In this document: piece after piece, positions 47,831-59,513 of the stretch
Layout of the letters: the number at the start of each line of letters is the position of its first letter
How positions within the stretch are numbered: the stretch's first letter is position 1
From: Candidatus Poribacteria bacterium
GTDB lineage: Bacteria > Poribacteria > WGA-4E > WGA-3G
Direction: 5' to 3'
Assembly: GCA_022821965.1 (NCBI GenBank)
Contig: JAJECN010000017.1
Span: forward strand, 1-64,000
DNA length: 64,000 nt
Notes under the pieces: generated by a model
Told to the model about the DNA's origin: nothing
The model's input: the letters and a program-made list of their open reading frames with translations, nothing else
Databases searched by the model: none
Program-made: the position numbers and the translations under genes

Positions 47831-50800
47831 CTATCTGCCCCGCGACTGAGGCCATTTGATCACATAGTTAGACGGCACCTCACGCACGAACATGGACGTG
47901 GAACGATCCCGATCCCCGGTGCGATACGTCGTAGACGACAGATAGAGTTGGTTTTGCGCTCGGGTCATGCCGACATAGAAAAGACGACGCTCCTCTTCAA
48001 TCTCCGCTTCTGTAATATTCTGTTTCCACATCGGGAAACTTCCCTCCTCCATGCCGAGAATGATAACAATTGGAAATTCTGTCCCTTTCGCTGCGTGCAA
48101 TGTCATTAATGTTAACTGCTCCGTCTCGTCGTCGATTTCATCAATGTTGGTAAGCAGTTTCTGATAATCCAAAAAGTTGGTGAGTCGATGTTCATCACTC
48201 AGTGATTCAAAGTGGAGAACCGCGTTCATGAAATGAACGTGGTGTCTTCGCCACTCAGCGTCTTCTGGGAATTCTGGGACGGTGTTATCTTGTAATTCTT
48301 CCATAAAGGCTGTTGTTTGCACTGCCTCTGTTGTCTCAAGTGGGAGGCGATCCGGCAGGACAGCGTTATGTGTCTGGACGAAACGTTTCGCTGCAGTGAG
48401 GAATACTTCAGTCTCGGTTAAGGGGTCTCCTTTAGCGGCTTCTGATTCGGATGCCTCAGTTTTCGCAAGGATACCAAGCCCAACGAGCGGTAACAATTCG
48501 GTAAGTGATTTCACCTCGCGCTTGTAAGCATCAATTTTGATGAGTTCTTTGAAGATTTCACGGTTGACTCTCACATCCTCCAAGGCGTTGTGTAAACGGT
48601 CGTGTTCAATGCCAAATTTTTCAGCAAGTGCTCCCATGTTACATCTTTGCCGTGGGAAAAGCCTGCGCGCCGTGGCAAGTGTATCGTAATGTGGCGAGGA
48701 TAATCCTCTTTTCAGATACCGTATGAGATCACGGGCAAGGATCGGATTATCATATTCTGCCACGTTGTGCCCAATCAAAATCCTATTCTGAATGAACCCA
48801 AAGAATTCAGGCAGGACCATTTCAATCCCGGGGGCATCTTTGACGGTTTCTGCATCAATTTGGTTAATGCGCGTGGCTGACCGTGGGATGTGTCCACCCG
48901 GTGGTTTTACCAAACGATAGTATCGCTCGACCTCATCCCCGATTACGCTGAGACGGTGGGCAGCGATCTCAACGATTTCCGCTGTTTTTGGATTGATACC
49001 GGTGGTTTCGAGATCATAGACAACCATATCTGCCATATTTGGGCTCTCAAAGCGGTTAACAAGACGTTGACAGAGCTTAAGTGCCGCGATGCTCCGAATC
49101 CCTTCGATTTCAAGGTGAATCGCATCTGTGTTTGTTGTATCTGCTGTACCGATAAGAATTGTCCGGGCATCCCGTCCACTTTCCCCGATCTCCTCAAAAT
49201 CACCGATCAATAGATGGACACCGTCTTCGTTTTGTGTGGGGTTGTTTCCGTCAGGTGGCAGAAATTGGAGTTGTGCTGTCTGCTTCAGATAAGTTTCAAG
49301 CGTCTGATGGATAATATGTGCTGCACAGTACTCATCAATTCCGTAACTGGCAGTAATCTGAATCGGTTCTTCGAGGTCGATGGCACTGTAGAGGACATCC
49401 TGAGCGGTTGCCAGATTCGGCAGTTCGTGCTGTTTTTCGATGACCTCCAGTTCTTCACTGCGATACGGAGAACGGGAAAGCTCCAAAGTATCAAAGAGTT
49501 TCAAGATGATTTTATCGGTCTTTTCGCTTTCAATTTCAGTCGATAATTTCTCAATTTGGGTCCAGAATTGACGGACGTTTCGGCGGGTCACAGGACCGAC
49601 ATCCTGTGGATATGCCTCAATATTTCTCAAGAGTTCTACGAATTCAATGTCTTCGCGCTGCGCGAGCCATTTGAGACGCACCCATGTTAAGTCATCAATA
49701 CAGGTCTCAGGGAAATTGATGGCGCGCTCAAGGTCTTGCGGGAGTTGCCACTGAATGAAACGGAGATACGCGAGGATGTCTTTACTACCCCCTTCTCCAA
49801 AGGAATTCGTTGATTGAATCCGCTGGAATTTGATGTCAGCATGTAACAACTGCTCTGCTAAGACATCTGCAAGTCTGTGTGTTCGGTAGAAGACAGCGAT
49901 ATCGCGATAGGAATACTTCCGTTGCGTTACCAAGTTCTGGATGACTTGAATGATGCCGTGTGCTTCCGCTACCGGAGTATCAAAGGTGTAGTGAAAAATA
50001 TCCCGTCCCGCATCTTTGTGGCTTCTAAGGGTGTGCTGTTTCTGTCGCTCCGGATTTCGTGAGATAACTTCCTCCGCGGCGCGCAAAATCTTCTCGCTAC
50101 ACCGATAATGATCGTCCAATTCGAGTGTTCGTGGGTTGAAATCGGCTCTGAAGTCGTCAATATATTGTGGGTTCGAGCCTCGCCAGCTGTAGATCGCCTG
50201 ATCTTCGTCAGCAACGACCATCAAATTTTGTTCTGGTGGGGCACAGAGCAGCTGGAGGAGGCGATACTGCACGCGGTTCACATCGTGAAATTCGTCAACG
50301 AGGATATAGGCGATTTCTCTGTGATAGTCTTTCAGTACCTCTGGCACCTGTTCAAATAATTCAACGGCTTTCACAAGGAGATCGTCGAAATCGAGCGCAT
50401 CGTATTCGGCGAGTTTGTCCTGATAGTTTCGCAGTACGCTTCGGATGTTTTCGACAGTTCCCGGATCATGAATGTCCGTTCCCTCTGCTGCATCAACTGG
50501 GTCTTGTAATTTGCATTTGGCATCGCTGATGATGTTGCGTAGCAACCATGGAGGATAGGCATCAGCGTCGAGATTTGCCTCTCGGACACTCTCTGTTAAG
50601 ATTTCGTCTTGGAGTTCTTGATCGAAAATGGTGAAGTTTTCGCTTAAGCCGATTTGCAGTGCGTGCTTTCGGAGGATACTGACGCAAAATGCATGGAAGG
50701 TGCTGACCTTAATGTTGGAACCGTGCGGTTCGCCGATCTCATCGTTAACGCGTTCCTGCATCTCTTGCGCGGCTTTGTTCGTAAAGGTAATCGCAAGGAT

Positions 50801-50959
50801 ATTTTCCGGCTTGATGCCGTGATGACGAATCAAGTAGGCGATGCGGTGTGTGATGACTTTCGTTTTCCCTGTACCGGGACCTGCGATAACGAGAAGGGGA
50901 CCATTTTTATGTATTACAGCTTCTTTCTGTTTTTCATTTAATTCGTGAAGAATGTTCAT
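47831..50959 (-). CDS. UvrD-family helicase with embedded DnaQ-like exonuclease
   Basis: This 1042-residue SF1 helicase has Walker A AGPGTGKTKV (about 26-35), the motif LAITFTNKAAQEMQERV, DEFHDVNRVQ, VVADEDQAIYSWRGS and the 2A motif TLMTLHAAKGTEF (about 951). Between them, at about 643-808, lies a complete DEDDh exonuclease: VVYDLETTGINP, HNVAEYDNP and HNALEDVRVN. UvrD and PcrA are typically 700-750 residues, so the insert explains the length. It would couple 3'-5' unwinding with nuclease activity. AGGGAAA lies before the ATG at 50959. It lies between two WD40 genes and is not in an operon with them. Confidence 0.88.
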   Translation of the reverse strand: MNILHELNEKQKEAVIHKNGPLLVIAGPGTGKTKVITHRIAYLIRHHGIKPENILAITFTNKAAQEMQERVNDEIGEPHGSNIKVSTFHAFCVSILRKHALQIGLSENFTIFDQELQDEILTESVREANLDADAYPPWLLRNIISDAKCKLQDPVDAAEGTDIHDPGTVENIRSVLRNYQDKLAEYDALDFDDLLVKAVELFEQVPEVLKDYHREIAYILVDEFHDVNRVQYRLLQLLCAPPEQNLMVVADEDQAIYSWRGSNPQYIDDFRADFNPRTLELDDHYRCSEKILRAAEEVISRNPERQKQHTLRSHKDAGRDIFHYTFDTPVAEAHGIIQVIQNLVTQRKYSYRDIAVFYRTHRLADVLAEQLLHADIKFQRIQSTNSFGEGGSKDILAYLRFIQWQLPQDLERAINFPETCIDDLTWVRLKWLAQREDIEFVELLRNIEAYPQDVGPVTRRNVRQFWTQIEKLSTEIESEKTDKIILKLFDTLELSRSPYRSEELEVIEKQHELPNLATAQDVLYSAIDLEEPIQITASYGIDEYCAAHIIHQTLETYLKQTAQLQFLPPDGNNPTQNEDGVHLLIGDFEEIGESGRDARTILIGTADTTNTDAIHLEIEGIRSIAALKLCQRLVNRFESPNMADMVVYDLETTGINPKTAEIVEIAAHRLSVIGDEVERYYRLVKPPGGHIPRSATRINQIDAETVKDAPGIEMVLPEFFGFIQNRILIGHNVAEYDNPILARDLIRYLKRGLSSPHYDTLATARRLFPRQRCNMGALAEKFGIEHDRLHNALEDVRVNREIFKELIKIDAYKREVKSLTELLPLVGLGILAKTEASESEAAKGDPLTETEVFLTAAKRFVQTHNAVLPDRLPLETTEAVQTTAFMEELQDNTVPEFPEDAEWRRHHVHFMNAVLHFESLSDEHRLTNFLDYQKLLTNIDEIDDETEQLTLMTLHAAKGTEFPIVIILGMEEGSFPMWKQNITEAEIEEERRLFYVGMTRAQNQLYLSSTTYRTGDRDRSTSMFVREVPSNYVIKWPQSRGR

Positions 50960-51376: not shown

Positions 51377-53218
51377 ATGAACCCACAAAATCCACAACCC
51401 TACACACAGTGGGAACTCCCCCAAGGTGTGTTAGCACGTCTCGGCAAAGGCGCGATAGCGGATATTCAGTATTCGCCAGATGGGACCCGTCTCGCTGTTG
51501 CCACTTATATCGGCGTTTGGCTCTACGATGCACGCGCCTACACCGAGCTTGCCCTTCTTAAATATGGACAGGATCAGGGGACCACTTCGATCGCATTTTC
51601 GCGTGATGGTACAACCCTTGTGAACGAAAATAGGAATAATACAATCTCGCTATGGGATGTTCACAGCGGACAGTGGCGCTCCACAATGACATTCCGAGAT
51701 GATGAAGATGAGATCTGGTCGTTTGTCGTCTCGCCGGATGGGAATACCCTCATCAGCGCAGGATTCGGCGGAAAAATCCAATTTTGGGACCTTCACATAG
51801 GTCGTTTGCACTTTGAGATCGTCGGACATGCGTATCCTATCACAACCTTGGCGTTGTCACCGGATGGCAAAATCCTTGCGAGCGGCAGTAATGACTTCAC
51901 CATCAAGCTCTGGGATGCCCAAAATGGAAGGCATCTCTCCACACTCACAGGACATACACATAATGTTATGGCGTTGGCGTTCTCTCCCAACGGTATGAAT
52001 CTCGTCAGTGGTAGTCGGGACAAGACGCTCTGCTTATGGGATACCACTACCGGCGAAAAATTAGAAAATCTCGCCACAGACATCGGTGTTGTCGGTAATC
52101 TGGAGTTTTCACCCGATGGAACATTCCTCGCGAGTGGGGGTGGTGACCGGACCATTCGACTCTGGAACGCCGATACAGGCACCGAACAAGCAACTCTCAC
52201 CGGACATAAAGATGGTATTTGCGGTATCTCTTTCTCTCCCGATGGAAAAACGATTGCCAGTGCCAGTGGTGATCATACCATTCGTTTTTGGGATCTTGCT
52301 ACCGGTGCAGAAAAGGCAATTATTGACGGACATATCGAGTGGATTAACTCCGTGGCGTTCTCTCCTGATGGTAGTCTCCTCGCCAGTGGTAGTGATGACG
52401 AAAGGCTTCGGTTGTGGGATTTGTACACCTACACTGAATCTCAAACCCTCAACGGCCATGAATATCTGATTGAGGATGTCGCGTTTTCTCCGGATGGTGA
52501 AATCCTCGCAAGTGCAAGTCAAGATGAAAGGATTTGCTTGTGGAATGTGAATGCTGGCACCGAGACAGCGATCTTGGATCATACGGATACGGTTACCGCA
52601 TTGGCGTTTGTTCCGAATGGGACAACCCTCGCGAGCGGCAGTGAAGACAACGTTGTTCGATTATGGGATATTGACACCGGAGACCAATTGGCAGTTTTAA
52701 CAGGTCATACCGATATTGTTACGACAGTAGCATTCTCGCCGAACGGAAGAATCCTTGCGAGTGGCAGTGAAGATAACACAATTCGATTATGGAATGCGAC
52801 CACTGGTCATTATCTCGCTTTGCTTACAGGCCATACCGATGTTGTTAAGGCGGTTGCGTTTTCACCGGATGGAAACATTCTTGCCAGCGGGAGTTCGGAC
52901 AACACCATTAGACTCTGGGATGTGAACAATTGTCAGCATATTGCTACCCTTACGGGGCATACCGATGCTGTTGAGACCGTCGCGTTTTCGCCAGATGGAC
53001 GCACGCTTATGAGCGGCGGTGATGCTGAGGACAACACGATCCGTTTATGGGATCCTGTCACCAACCAGCAGTGTGCAATCATTAAGAACTTTAGGGTTCA
53101 CACATTGGCATTCAGTCCCGATGGTAGAACCCTTGCCAGCGGCAGTGCTGACGGCACCATCCTCATCTGGGACCTCGCAACGGTTGAAGCTACGTACGGT
53201 TTAGCCTATTCTATTTAG
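51377..53218 (+). CDS. WD40-repeat protein
   Basis: This is a 613-residue cytoplasmic-looking protein (no signal peptide) built almost wholly of about 14 WD40 repeats, e.g. LAFSPDGKTLASGSNDFTIKLWD. They predict two seven-bladed propellers. The first blade is divergent (RLGKGAIADIQYSPDGTRLAVATYIGVWLYD) and is shared with the neighbouring paralogue. Repeats 8-13 are very alike in DNA, showing recent internal amplification. The start ATG 51377 has weak ribosome-site support. No catalytic domain is fused. Confidence 0.88.
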   Translation: MNPQNPQPYTQWELPQGVLARLGKGAIADIQYSPDGTRLAVATYIGVWLYDARAYTELALLKYGQDQGTTSIAFSRDGTTLVNENRNNTISLWDVHSGQWRSTMTFRDDEDEIWSFVVSPDGNTLISAGFGGKIQFWDLHIGRLHFEIVGHAYPITTLALSPDGKILASGSNDFTIKLWDAQNGRHLSTLTGHTHNVMALAFSPNGMNLVSGSRDKTLCLWDTTTGEKLENLATDIGVVGNLEFSPDGTFLASGGGDRTIRLWNADTGTEQATLTGHKDGICGISFSPDGKTIASASGDHTIRFWDLATGAEKAIIDGHIEWINSVAFSPDGSLLASGSDDERLRLWDLYTYTESQTLNGHEYLIEDVAFSPDGEILASASQDERICLWNVNAGTETAILDHTDTVTALAFVPNGTTLASGSEDNVVRLWDIDTGDQLAVLTGHTDIVTTVAFSPNGRILASGSEDNTIRLWNATTGHYLALLTGHTDVVKAVAFSPDGNILASGSSDNTIRLWDVNNCQHIATLTGHTDAVETVAFSPDGRTLMSGGDAEDNTIRLWDPVTNQQCAIIKNFRVHTLAFSPDGRTLASGSADGTILIWDLATVEATYGLAYSI

Positions 53219-53265: not shown

Positions 53266-55077
53266 ATGGACTTACAAACACCACAATCCTATACACAATG
53301 GGGACTTCCCTCAGGTGCCAAAGCCCGCATTGGCAAAGGTACGATAGGACATATTTCGTATTCACCGGATGGAACACAACTTGCCGTTACCGGTTCCATG
53401 GGTATCTGGTTGTACGATGTGCACACGTGTGCCGAAGTCGCTTTTCTGAGGCCCGGGCAGAATCAGAGCACTCCCGCGCTCCCGCTTTCATGGGGTGGCA
53501 CAACCCTCGTCGACGTAAATGCGGACAGTACGATTTCACTGTGGGATACGCACACTGGGGAACGTCGCATTACCGCTGAAGATGTTTGGGCAGACGCACT
53601 CTCACCGGATGGCACAACACTTGTAAGTGCAGGGTGGGATAAGACAATCCGTTTTTGGGACAGCCGCACAGGTCGTCTCCTTTTCAATGTCATCGGGCAT
53701 ACCGGGGCAGTTAACGCGTTGGCGTTCTCACCGGATGGCAAGACGCTCGCGAGTGGTAGTGAAGACCAGACGATTCGGCTCTGGGATGCACATAACGGTA
53801 GGCATCTCGCCACGTTCACTGAGCATACAGATTGGGTTGAGACGTTGGCATACTCCCCCAACGGTATGATTCTTGTAAGTCGAAGCAGGAACGGAACGCT
53901 CTGTTTATGGGATGTCACTACCGGTAAAAAGCAAGCGACCTTCGCTACGGACTCGAGCAGGTTCGTCGGTCATTTAGCATTTTCACCGGATGGCACCCTA
54001 ATCGCGAGTGGTGGTAGCGGTCATACGGTTCGGCTTTGGAACGCGGATACAGGCACCGAAGCAGCGACCTTCACAGGGCACGAAGATGTGGTCCATGCTA
54101 CAGCGTTCTCCCCCGATGGGACAACGCTCGCCAGCGCAGGTGGGGACAGCACCATCCGATTCTGGGATCTTACCAGCGGCACTGAAAAGGCGATCATTAC
54201 AGGACATTGGGAATGGGTAGGTTCTGTCGCGTTCTCGCCTGACGGAAGCCTGCTCGCCAGCGGCAGTAACGACAAAACGCTTCGATTGTGGGACACGCAA
54301 ACCTATACTGAGGCTATGGCTTTCAACGGACATCTCAAATTTATTGATCAAGTCGCATTTTCCCCTGATGGCATGACGCTTGCCAGTGCCAGTCGAGATG
54401 ACAGGATTTTTGTGTGGGATATGAACACCGGTACCGATCGCGCGATCTTGCAAGGGCATACGGAGATGACGCGCACATTGGCATTCGCACCCAACGGCAC
54501 GATACTTGCCAGTGGTGGCGACGATAACACCGTCCGATTATGGGATGTTGATACCGGGAACCAATTAGCGGTCTTAACCGGACATACCAGCCGAGTCGAT
54601 ACAGTCGCGTTTTCCCCTGATGGCAGGACGCTCGCCAGTTCCAGTGCTGATGAGACGATTCGATTGTGGAATGCCATCACAGGTCACTATATTACTGACC
54701 TTAGAGGACATATGGATATGGTTGAAACGGTGACGTTTTCGCCGGATAGTAGAATTCTCGTCAGTGGAAGTTCAGATGAGACCATTCGGTTCTGGGATCC
54801 ACATAATTGTCAGCATTTATCAACCGTAACCGTGCCGAGTCACGTTTATGCGGTGGTATTTTCGCCTGATGGCAGCATCCTTGCCAGTGCCGGTCAGGAC
54901 GAAAAAATCCGCTTATGGGACCCTGGCACCGGCAATCTGCGAGCGGTCCTGGATGGACACGCTTCTGATGTCGACGCGTTGGCGTTCAGCCCTGATGGTA
55001 GAACGTTTGTCAGCGGCAGTGCTGACGGCACCATCCTCATCTGGGATCTCGCCAGCGTTGAAGCGACGTATAATTGA
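53266..55077 (+). CDS. WD40-repeat protein, paralogue of the previous
   Basis: This 603-residue protein has the same layout as the gene 47 bases upstream: start MDLQTPQSYTQWGLPSGAKA against MNPQNPQPYTQWELPQGVLA, about 14 WD40 repeats, and the same ending ADGTILIWDLASVEATY. The pair is a tandem gene duplication. It is preceded only by a weak AT-rich leader. It probably forms two propellers for protein binding; the partners are unknown. Confidence 0.88.
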   Translation: MDLQTPQSYTQWGLPSGAKARIGKGTIGHISYSPDGTQLAVTGSMGIWLYDVHTCAEVAFLRPGQNQSTPALPLSWGGTTLVDVNADSTISLWDTHTGERRITAEDVWADALSPDGTTLVSAGWDKTIRFWDSRTGRLLFNVIGHTGAVNALAFSPDGKTLASGSEDQTIRLWDAHNGRHLATFTEHTDWVETLAYSPNGMILVSRSRNGTLCLWDVTTGKKQATFATDSSRFVGHLAFSPDGTLIASGGSGHTVRLWNADTGTEAATFTGHEDVVHATAFSPDGTTLASAGGDSTIRFWDLTSGTEKAIITGHWEWVGSVAFSPDGSLLASGSNDKTLRLWDTQTYTEAMAFNGHLKFIDQVAFSPDGMTLASASRDDRIFVWDMNTGTDRAILQGHTEMTRTLAFAPNGTILASGGDDNTVRLWDVDTGNQLAVLTGHTSRVDTVAFSPDGRTLASSSADETIRLWNAITGHYITDLRGHMDMVETVTFSPDSRILVSGSSDETIRFWDPHNCQHLSTVTVPSHVYAVVFSPDGSILASAGQDEKIRLWDPGTGNLRAVLDGHASDVDALAFSPDGRTFVSGSADGTILIWDLASVEATYN

Positions 55078-55171: not shown

Positions 55172-55286
55172 CTTGCGTTGGTGTATAGGTAATTAGGGGT
55201 TACTATAATCCTCATGTAACCCTGCCGGCTTGCTGCTATTGTTTGTCCTTTAACCTCGCAAGACTAACCTCTGTATATGTAACGGC

Positions 55287-55435
55287 ACACATCGTGTATC
55301 GTTAATATTTTACGTATGACGATAGATATAAGGCGTGTAATTGACACTTTAACGCGACCTATGCAGTAAACACGCCTATAGAGACAAATTGCATAGGTCT
55401 TGATTTTGAATATCTAATGACACACGGCGTGTGTC
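55287..55435 (+). promoter_or_regulatory. Structured leader with possible pseudoknot, upstream of BMP lipoprotein
   Basis: TATCGT (55297-55302) pairs with ACGATA (55319-55324). AGGCGTGT (55331-55338) is a perfect match for ACACGCCT (55370-55377), and GACCTATGCA (55356-55365) for TGCATAGGTC (55390-55399). The last two pairs interlace, as in an H-type pseudoknot. GACACAC/GTGTGTC (55419-55435) is a 7-bp hairpin around GGC, 21 bases before the ATG, close to the ribosome site. The topology suggests a cis-acting RNA, but a cluster of DNA repeats cannot be excluded. Confidence 0.5.
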
Positions 55436-55456
55436 TACTGCTTTGAAAGGAATAGA

Positions 55457-56611
55457 ATGAAATATTTGAACGTGTTGAGAAACACAATCTTTTTGGGAAT
55501 ATTAACCTTTTTAATCTATCTTTGTGGCTGTGAACGGGTTCAGGATATGCTTCCTCCCGATCAATCCGGGATGATGGATGCAACCTCGATTCGGGTGAGT
55601 TTCGTATATCCCGGCGATTGCCTTGGTGATTCCTCTTACTGTGATGTACTCTATAATGGTGCGCAGAAAGCGAAGATGGAGCTTGGGATTGATGTCGTCG
55701 AAATGGAGAGCAACACTGAGACGTGGGACACGCGCTTACAAGAAGCCGCTCAGACATCAGGTTTAGTCATCACTTCGGGTTACCAGATGGCGGCCCCTGT
55801 TTCACGCGTGGCACCAGAGTTTCCTGAAGTTATGTTTGTCATTTTTGATGCTGCGGTGGATTTGTCCAATGTAGTCTCTTTCACCCATAGAGTAAACGAA
55901 GGCACTTTCCTACTCGGGGCGATCGCTGGCTTAAAAACGCAAACTGGAAAGGTCGGTTACCTCGGCGGCGCGAATGTTCCGTTACTCCACGAATTTGAAG
56001 CAGGTTACCTTGCTGGGGTCAAAGCCGTCAATCCAGACGCTGAAATTATGAGAGGTTATGTTGCCGATGATCAACAAGGTTTCTACGATCCTGTCAGAGG
56101 ACACGAGATTGCGGCTGCCCAGTATGAAAGTGGTGTTGACGTGATTTACGCGATGGCGGACCAATCGGGATTTGGTGCTGTTGAAGCCGCGAAGACAGCG
56201 GAAAACAGATATGTGATATGGAACTATATTGATATTACCGAGGTCGCACCGGGTATAATTCTAACAGGACTACGTGTAGGAATTGATGTATCAGCGTTCA
56301 ATGTTATTCAAGAGTTCACAGCTGGTAATCTGATGGCTGGTGTTCGTTCCGTTGGTCTTGCTGAAGACAATGTTGGCTATCTACTGACCGATGGCAATAG
56401 AGGTTTGATCTCTGATGACATCTTAGAAAAAGTCGAAGCACTGAAAGCAAGCATCATAGCTGGCGAAATTACTGTGCCAGTGGTCCCGGAAACTGGAGTT
56501 CAAGGCACAGTTGTACCGCCGTCAACATCGGAAGATGATGACGCAGCTACGGAACCGAATGTTGAAGGCACAGTTATAGCACCAGTGGTAGGTGGCACAG
56601 AGATGCCATAA
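55457..56611 (+). CDS. BMP-family substrate-binding lipoprotein
   Basis: This is a 384-residue lipoprotein: signal ending in the lipobox YLCGC (Cys25), then a periplasmic-binding fold of the BMP/Med/PnrA family: IRVSFVYPGDCLGDSSYCD, LVITSGYQMAAPV, VMFVIFDAAVD, the signature GTFLLGAIAG and GKVGYLGG, and NYIDITEVAPGIILTGLRVGIDVS. Family members bind nucleosides for ABC importers. No permease or ATPase gene lies nearby. The C-terminal 45 residues carry a small duplication (GTVVPP/GTVIAP). AAAGGA lies five bases before the ATG; the structured leader precedes it. Confidence 0.87.
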   Translation: MKYLNVLRNTIFLGILTFLIYLCGCERVQDMLPPDQSGMMDATSIRVSFVYPGDCLGDSSYCDVLYNGAQKAKMELGIDVVEMESNTETWDTRLQEAAQTSGLVITSGYQMAAPVSRVAPEFPEVMFVIFDAAVDLSNVVSFTHRVNEGTFLLGAIAGLKTQTGKVGYLGGANVPLLHEFEAGYLAGVKAVNPDAEIMRGYVADDQQGFYDPVRGHEIAAAQYESGVDVIYAMADQSGFGAVEAAKTAENRYVIWNYIDITEVAPGIILTGLRVGIDVSAFNVIQEFTAGNLMAGVRSVGLAEDNVGYLLTDGNRGLISDDILEKVEALKASIIAGEITVPVVPETGVQGTVVPPSTSEDDDAATEPNVEGTVIAPVVGGTEMP

Positions 56612-57510: not shown

Positions 57511-58029
57511 TTACATCTCCTTCATTACTGAGGCGAGGTTCTTTGGTTCGCCACATTTACGTCTCTTAATTGTTGGTTTCTGCCTAAGGAAGCGGATCTT
57601 AGCACGTTCAAGTTTGTAGCGTTGCGACTTATCTATGCCTTTACCATAGAACAAGACAGGAATGCATGTGATTTTGAGTACCTTTAGTGCTTCTATTGCG
57701 GGCTCAGACAATTTCTCAAATACATCCGCCACGAAGTCAGCCGCTCCTTGCAATTGGTCGGTTACCATTGAGGCTTTGAAAGTGCCGCTCTTGAGTTCTA
57801 TAAGAACAACAGCTAGACTGTTTTGAGTGCCATCTTCGCAAAAGAGAATATAGTCACATCGTTTTGTGTTGATTTTACGTAGTTCAAACTCACATTCAAG
57901 ATTTACGATGACCCGATCGGCTGGAACATCAGTTAGATATACACGGCACCCATCTCCACTGCAAGTTCTACTAATGCATTCTTGATTGACTTGCTTCCCG
58001 ATTTCTGCGAGAAGCTCCTTTAATCCCAC
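57511..58029 (-). CDS. Putative PD-(D/E)XK nuclease-fold protein
   Basis: This 172-residue protein shows D59 in RCDYILFCEDG, then E78-L-K80 in VVLIELKSG and Q92 in DQLQGAADF, the order and spacing of the PD-(D/E)XK nuclease fold. An N-terminal cysteine set (CISRTCSGDGC) may bind metal. The C-terminal half has basic stretches (RAKIRFLRQKPTIKRRK). It overlaps the ATPase gene by 10 bases, indicating a functional pair. Its last codons are encoded by a degenerate copy of the local GGCGAGG palindrome. No closer family is recognised. Confidence 0.6.
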   Translation of the reverse strand: MGLKELLAEIGKQVNQECISRTCSGDGCRVYLTDVPADRVIVNLECEFELRKINTKRCDYILFCEDGTQNSLAVVLIELKSGTFKASMVTDQLQGAADFVADVFEKLSEPAIEALKVLKITCIPVLFYGKGIDKSQRYKLERAKIRFLRQKPTIKRRKCGEPKNLASVMKEM

Positions 58030-59513
58030 TCGTTGTCCTCCCTGTTGACTGCTTCGAGTAGATCTTGGAGGTTAACAGAGCTGTCATAAAGTTTATCAGC
58101 TACGTCTTCGTAATCTTTCGGTTCTATGCCTTCAGTGGGGTCAAATGGAATATGTTTCACTATCCCGTCCTTTTGGAACCACCATGTCCCTACTTCTTTC
58201 GACAACAGCCAATTTGATGGTGCCATCTTTTCCACTTTCCGTACACCTTTTCGCTTGAGTTCGCCTATCCGAATCAGATTCGCTATTTCTTTGAGAAGCC
58301 AATCGCTGTGCGTTGTCACAATGACGCGTACACCGGCGCGAACTAAGCCAGCAAGGGTTAATGCGATTTCAGTTTGTGCCCCGGGGTGCAGGTGTGCCTC
58401 CGGTTCCTCAATAATAAGAGTGTCACCGGGGTGAATACCACCGCGAAGAAATAGGACTAAAGGAGCAAGTTCGGATACCATTGATGAAACGCGAGTAAGT
58501 CTAACCGCTTCTTTAACTTCCCCTGGGTGATAGAGAAATTCTGGGTATCCACCGGGAACGGGTTGCATGAGAATCTTTCCGGCAAGTACATTTGATTCTA
58601 GGGTATCAGCAAGATATGCTACACTATTATCAGGGGCGCCGGTTTCATTGTAGAGTATGAGTTTTTGCATGAAGTCTGCTATCACCCCTGAAAAGGTTGG
58701 CACCTCCAAGGGAGCCAGGCCCGCGCGAGTTGCACCACTAACAACGGAACTCGCAATAACACGGTGGCTCTGCATTATACCGCTCCGCGCAGCTGGTAGG
58801 TAATACCTTTCTCTTTTTTTTAGGTCAAGTCCAGGAAAAATTTCAGGACAATGCTTGAGGGATTCTTCGAAACCGAGGTTTTCTTTTCCTGTAAGAAATA
58901 CTATGTTTTCGTTGAGATAGCCCTCTACAGCGGAATCCGATTTGGCAGTTTTTGTTATGTTGAAGTTCCACAAATCTTGACTCTCTTCGCGTGCTTCCGA
59001 GACAATTTCCATCTCATCGGTTTGATTATCGGTTTGTTGAATCAGTTCGGAAATTGAAGCGATATCGAAGCAGCGTCTAAGTTCAATCTCTAAATCGTGT
59101 CCGAGGAATTTTGAATCTTTGAAGCTGTGTGCTGTTAACTTGCGGATTTCTTGTGGCAGGTCAGAGAATGTGAAAGGTCTACCGCTCGTTTCCAACTTGG
59201 AAACTATATCCTGAGCCTCCTCTTCGGACGACTTAAAAGCAGCAGATAAGCCCTTTTGAGAACCATAGCTCATTTTTGCAAGCGTTCTGAAAGTTTCCGG
59301 CAAAGGTAGTCGAGAGAAACCGTTAAAAATACCGTGTAACGTATAGATGAGCGTAGAGAAATAGGTTTTGCCTGTATTACTCGGACCGACAAACACTGTC
59401 AATGGCCGGAGGTCTATTGTGGCATCTGCTATCGGACCGAAGTTTTTGACACTGATTTCAACATTCGGATATTTAGAAATTTCTTGGGTCTCAGACGTTT
59501 TTGTTTCGCTCAT
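58020..59513 (-). CDS. AAA ATPase of the AAA15/OLD-like type
   Basis: This is a 497-residue P-loop ATPase: Walker A GPSNTGKT at residues 43-50 in LRPLTVFVGPSNTGKTYFST, then RERYYLPAARSG, and Walker B TLIIEEPEAHLHPGAQ with VTTHSDWLLKEI (about 360-415). There is no C-terminal TOPRIM domain, unlike OLD nucleases. Relatives of this ATPase type act as sensors in systems such as PARIS and Septu, where a second gene supplies the effector. AGGGAG lies 8 bases before the ATG at 59513. The nuclease gene overlaps its end by 10 bases, and its start overlaps the DUF1611 gene by 23. Confidence 0.8.
   Translation of the reverse strand: MSETKTSETQEISKYPNVEISVKNFGPIADATIDLRPLTVFVGPSNTGKTYFSTLIYTLHGIFNGFSRLPLPETFRTLAKMSYGSQKGLSAAFKSSEEEAQDIVSKLETSGRPFTFSDLPQEIRKLTAHSFKDSKFLGHDLEIELRRCFDIASISELIQQTDNQTDEMEIVSEAREESQDLWNFNITKTAKSDSAVEGYLNENIVFLTGKENLGFEESLKHCPEIFPGLDLKKRERYYLPAARSGIMQSHRVIASSVVSGATRAGLAPLEVPTFSGVIADFMQKLILYNETGAPDNSVAYLADTLESNVLAGKILMQPVPGGYPEFLYHPGEVKEAVRLTRVSSMVSELAPLVLFLRGGIHPGDTLIIEEPEAHLHPGAQTEIALTLAGLVRAGVRVIVTTHSDWLLKEIANLIRIGELKRKGVRKVEKMAPSNWLLSKEVGTWWFQKDGIVKHIPFDPTEGIEPKDYEDVADKLYDSSVNLQDLLEAVNREDNEWD

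Follow-up and report, generated by a model that had tools for sequence, protein, structure and literature searches.

A conserved pseudoknotted leader of apparent mobile-palindrome origin upstream of a BMP-family lipoprotein gene in Poribacteria

Where new structured regulatory RNAs come from is still unsettled, since riboswitches and comparable leaders are in most cases so old that their source can no longer be recognized. The segment ahead of a BMP-family lipoprotein gene in Candidatus Poribacteria raises this question at a single locus: do the inverted repeats found there form a conserved fold, from what were they built, and what might the fold do for the gene that follows?

A composite fold ahead of the BMP gene

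We analyzed one 64,000-nucleotide stretch of a Candidatus Poribacteria genome (the window), in which a composite leader consisting of a hairpin (P1), two interlaced helices (A and B) arranged as an H-type pseudoknot, and a second hairpin (P3) lies upstream of the lipoprotein gene. The features are as follows.

55278–55443, + strand: whole conserved composite leader (145-bit match to covariance model R1; an orthologous leader present in 17 of the 21 species)
55280–55304, + strand: hairpin P1, a REP-like unit, with arms 55280–55290 (TAACGGCACAC) and 55294–55304 (GTGTATCGTTA) (95.5% of cells paired; reached by 12/400 simulations)
55315–55353, + strand: second REP-like unit, degenerate; helix A takes its left arm from the right half of this unit
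55331–55338, + strand: helix A 5' arm, AGGCGTGT (93.5% of cells paired; 1/400 simulations)
55370–55377, + strand: helix A 3' arm, ACACGCCT (basis as for the 5' arm)
55356–55365, + strand: helix B 5' arm, GACCTATGCA (3/400 simulations; covariation above 500/500 shuffles; inverted repeat family)
55390–55399, + strand: helix B 3' arm, TGCATAGGTC (basis as for the 5' arm)
55419–55435, + strand: hairpin P3, near the ribosome site, with arms 55419–55426 (GACACACG) and 55428–55435 (CGTGTGTC) (94.3% of cells paired; 0/400 simulations)
55419–55441, − strand: REP copy GCAGTAGACACACGCCGTGTGTC with 3 mismatches, the sole REP copy within the window
55446–55451, + strand: Shine-Dalgarno-like AAAGGA, read from the sequence, 10 nt after P3 and 5 nt ahead of the ATG
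55457–56611, + strand: BMP/PnrA-like substrate-binding lipoprotein gene, 384 aa (Pfam Bmp, E = 1.5e-48)

The original prediction had described a structured leader at 55287–55435, and this observation is confirmed. Helices A (8 bp) and B (10 bp) are both perfect and interlace as had been claimed, and the hairpin near the ribosome site is where it had been placed. None of 1,500 dinucleotide shuffles of 55287–55435 contained interlaced perfect helices of at least 8 and at least 10 bp, while any helix of at least 10 bp occurred in 17 of the 1,500; the nested-only fold gives z = −2.6. The loops in the window measure ∼17, 4, and 12 nt, which we take to make an H-type pseudoknot sterically possible. 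Two points need correction. The conserved first hairpin is P1, which begins seven bases ahead of 55287, and a TATCG/CGATA pairing within 55298–55324 is not kept in orthologs.

Conservation of the leader and of its pairing

A protein search of 60 genomes yielded 21 BMP orthologs including the window's own, all from one genus; the others are 74–79% identical to the window protein, and the named records holding them are all Poribacteria. The leader lies upstream of the BMP gene in 17 of these 21 congeneric species, intact in 15 and interrupted by insertions in two. In one interrupted case (G018) a short element is inserted within the leader, and in the other (G005) an insertion splits the leader, and the BMP gene itself falls into two frames. 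One of the intact leaders (G016) is ∼430 bases from the BMP gene start. The insertions that part leader and gene in G005 (locus L130) and G016 (L133) look IS200/IS605-like by eye. Four orthologs (G011, G021, G022, and G028) have no leader; because of these and the two interrupted copies, the leader is not essential. Presence of the leader is most simply ancestral on the gene tree, with a few losses, and a late gain is less parsimonious.

We built a covariance model from 14 leaders and searched the 60 genomes. Full-length copies occur at the BMP ortholog alone, one per genome, and outside the genus no match of comparable strength was found; the whole leader is thus ruled out as a mobile element. 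Rfam gave no match at gathering thresholds and chance-level matches alone in a permissive search, in agreement with the earlier remark that no known riboswitch family was recognizable.

Across 14 sequences, 93.1% of the pair cells hold standard pairs, a value that falls to 24–53% when the partners are slid by 1–3 columns. Double changes are seen at 10 pairs across the fold. Four such pairs lie in helix B, whose covariation score exceeds that of all 500 shuffles; covariation in helix A is weak under simple shuffling (28/500 reach the observed score). Because related sequences can mislead simple pair counts, we used a tree-aware null in which the change counts of each column were kept and the changes were placed randomly on the gene tree (400 runs). 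Pairing in these simulations was 81.9±2.3% (sd), and none of the 400 reached the observed 93.1%; helix by helix, the observed value was reached in 12 runs for P1, 1 for A, 3 for B, and none for P3. The leader pairing is clearly constrained under this null, and the covariation check among homologs, which had been proposed in advance, bears out a structured leader that is linked with the BMP gene.

Paired columns changed 0.8–1.9 times each, compared with 2.3 for unpaired columns and 2.6 for third codon positions of the BMP gene. Changes away from Watson-Crick pairs led to G-U 35 times versus 18 times to A-C. This bias favors folding of the + strand, modestly so, since 12 of 400 simulations reach the excess.

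Resemblance of leader parts to dispersed repeats

In a search of the window's own genome, the P3 hairpin recurs elsewhere. The dispersed REP repeat is a 34-bp GTAG-headed palindrome (GTTACGGCACACGGMGTGTGCCTACTACTTTTAA; other strand, GTAGTAGGCACACKCCGTGTGCCGTAAC), and the family consensus is GTAGTAGGCACACKCCGTGTGCC, from which the copy in the window departs by the three mismatches noted above. The genome holds 37 copies at up to 3 mismatches, compared with 0 for a control pattern, and the repeat was found in 31 of 36 genomes, often clustered. Tandem clusters of up to ∼8 consecutive copies are present at four loci of relatives (L126, L127, L131, and L132; genomes G028, G038, and G032). A gene for a RAYT-like (REP-associated) transposase is found in the window's own genome (locus L138, 1225–1866, G000:C6; NCBIfam REP_Tyr_transpos NF047646, E = 2.2e-15, below the model's curated cut-off), with three REPs before it and one after it. 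These four REPs, which belong to the RAYT locus and not to the leader window, share one orientation.

Other parts of the leader resemble the same repeat. The left part of P1 equals REP units of relatives, and P1 aligns to the REP in the ortholog consensus. The stretch of the consensus that runs from P1 to B, and with it the left arm of A, reaches a REP score of 37, versus 14.7±2.8 for shuffles (p = 3e-4). The window's own inner copy is more diverged than the consensus and does not display the match by itself (p = 0.42), so that a REP origin of the inner part is argued from the orthologs. P1, P3, and the left arm of A hence resemble the dispersed REP in sequence. A composition of five tandem REP units was also considered. 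The consensus as a whole does align to five units, but the segment from B to B' matches no better than shuffles (p = 0.37), and it was reassigned to a MITE for that reason.

The ortholog consensus of the B 5' arm (AGGACTTACGCA) is identical to a MITE-type inverted repeat. The arms of B in orthologs, GGACTTACGCA and TGCGTAAGTCC, equal the terminal inverted repeats of short elements that are scattered through these genomes and mostly TA-flanked. As in these Poribacterial MITEs, TA follows the right arm of B; unlike in them, the pair in the window has diverged from the repeat yet is complementary, and the inside of the segment pairs outward with a REP half to give helix A. In the leader, ACTTTAA, a candidate target-site duplication, stands on both sides of the B segment. 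The later insertion in the G018 leader has the same element ends, lies at the neighboring ACTTT, and is flanked by ACTTT. No ortholog was found with P1 and P3 but without B, as an empty site would look. These resemblances, noticed after the fact, suggest a MITE origin of helix B. The parts of the leader are most readily understood in the order REP, REP, MITE, REP, in which helix A would join a REP half to a stretch inside the MITE.

GTAG-headed REPs accompanied by a RAYT gene are a known arrangement (Nunvar et al. 2010, PMC2817692; Di Nocera et al. 2013, PMC3733652). The Poribacterial repeats share with it the GTAG head, a palindrome interrupted by a short unpaired middle, copies dispersed between genes, clustering, and a RAYT adjoining copies. 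They differ from those descriptions in that three degenerate units and another element combine into a single fold, which different species keep at the same gene, and in that the REPs around the Poribacterial RAYT all have the same orientation. We found Poribacteria named in neither paper. In the literature that we searched, where subscription journals are sparsely covered, we found no account of such a leader or of REPs in Poribacteria. What is new here is that parts of a leader apparently derive from mobile palindromes still present in the same genomes.

Is retention of a REP ahead of a gene unusual? As a control, we took two other genes of the same genome that have a close upstream REP and scanned their orthologs within 300 bases. 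An upstream REP was found in 2 of 30 genomes for one gene and in 3 of 30 for the other, the own genome included, and the proteins of both control genes are better conserved than the BMP protein. Retention of the BMP composite in 17 of 21 contrasts strongly with these values, though two controls are few. Since species hardly ever share the REP ahead of either control gene, the composite at the BMP gene looks exapted. The original prediction had named scattered occurrence of the sequence, without relation to BMP genes, as an observation that would count against it; the hairpins by themselves are scattered in this way, and the whole fold is not. The source material, REPs with a RAYT as well as MITE-like elements, persists in the same genomes as the leader. 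With this surviving source, 15 intact leaders, and four orthologs without a leader, the step from palindromes to leader becomes testable.

Possible roles of the leader

We think it probable that the BMP mRNA has a structured 5' leader of REP/MITE derivation, which tunes its translation or stability. In this reading, a cluster of roughly three REP palindromes of the RAYT type would have come to sit ahead of the Poribacterial BMP gene, and a short GGACTTACGCA-bounded inverted-repeat element would have inserted into the spacer of one REP. Selection would then have kept the cluster and reshaped it into a folded 5' leader comprising P1, the A/B pseudoknot, and P3, of which P3 and the pseudoknot, in the transcript, would most likely set ribosome loading or mRNA stability. 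The fold, the constraint on its pairing, its tie to the BMP gene, and the REP resemblance of three of its parts are observed; transcription of the whole element and an effect on translation or stability are what we infer, and P1 may lie outside the transcript.

Searches of the leader for regulatory parts revealed no terminator-like site downstream on the + strand and no obvious aptamer core, and a comparison of orthologs revealed no conserved partner of the Shine-Dalgarno site. Sequestration of that site by the B 3' arm (UCCU against AGGA) seemed plausible by eye and was rejected: the best duplex partner is not the same in all orthologs, some of which leave the site open while others close it. 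We prefer tuning of ribosome loading or mRNA stability over a sequestered-start switch because neither a terminator nor a conserved Shine-Dalgarno partner was found.

The same searches bear on the proposal of a ligand-responsive RNA, in which the pseudoknot would bind a nucleoside or another BMP substrate and switch expression. The leader shares with pseudoknotted riboswitches and other structured leaders among the Rfam cis-regulatory RNAs an H-type pseudoknot, a hairpin near the ribosome site, and a transport-related gene, and a conserved pseudoknot ahead of a substrate-binding protein gene, in a structured leader found at one gene class, is what this proposal would predict. Unlike those RNAs, it has no Rfam match and appears to originate from mobile repeats. 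An expression platform, in the form of a terminator or conserved Shine-Dalgarno pairing, was not found, and the conserved unpaired stretches are AU-rich and partly accounted for by REP ancestry. Ligand response is thus not supported so far and seems to us distinctly improbable; we hold the same of a BMP-substrate riboswitch born within one genus from REPs and a MITE, its pseudoknot formed by cross-pairing of formerly separate mobile units. The structural half of the original prediction is supported and its interpretation as a whole partly so.

Two further readings would dispense with a regulatory RNA in part or altogether. P1 is the slowest-changing part of the leader, a long palindrome with an invariant AT-rich stretch behind it, and of all the helices it fares worst against the tree-aware null (12/400), as would be expected if P1, and perhaps P3, were an operator for a DNA-binding protein and A/B alone were transcribed or relevant at all. 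Such an element would need neither the kept interlaced pairing nor changes in A and P3 that lead to G-U rather than A-C, and we regard it as unlikely. The leader could also be a passive remnant of mobile palindromes that clustered long ago, with pairing that is simply inherited, given that its parts are or resemble such palindromes and that four orthologs have lost it and two have it interrupted. Against this, unpaired columns change at nearly the third-codon rate and paired ones do not, the pairing lies above every simulation that keeps the per-column change counts, and other REPs are lost between the same species; a remnant therefore carries little weight with us. Tuning of the BMP mRNA by a folded leader remains our preferred reading.

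The neighborhood of the BMP gene displays two further features. Beyond it lie two adjacent genes on the − strand (57511–58029 and 58020–59513) that resemble a candidate anti-phage pair of the PD-T4-4/PDC-M47 type (ATPase, E = 4e-38; small partner, E = 1.6e-7). On the other side, tandem WD40-repeat genes (51377–53218 and 53266–55077, + strand) stand between a UvrD-like helicase gene (47831–50959, − strand) and the BMP gene. The WD40 pair looks like an insertion, because in several relatives the BMP gene apparently adjoins the helicase gene directly.
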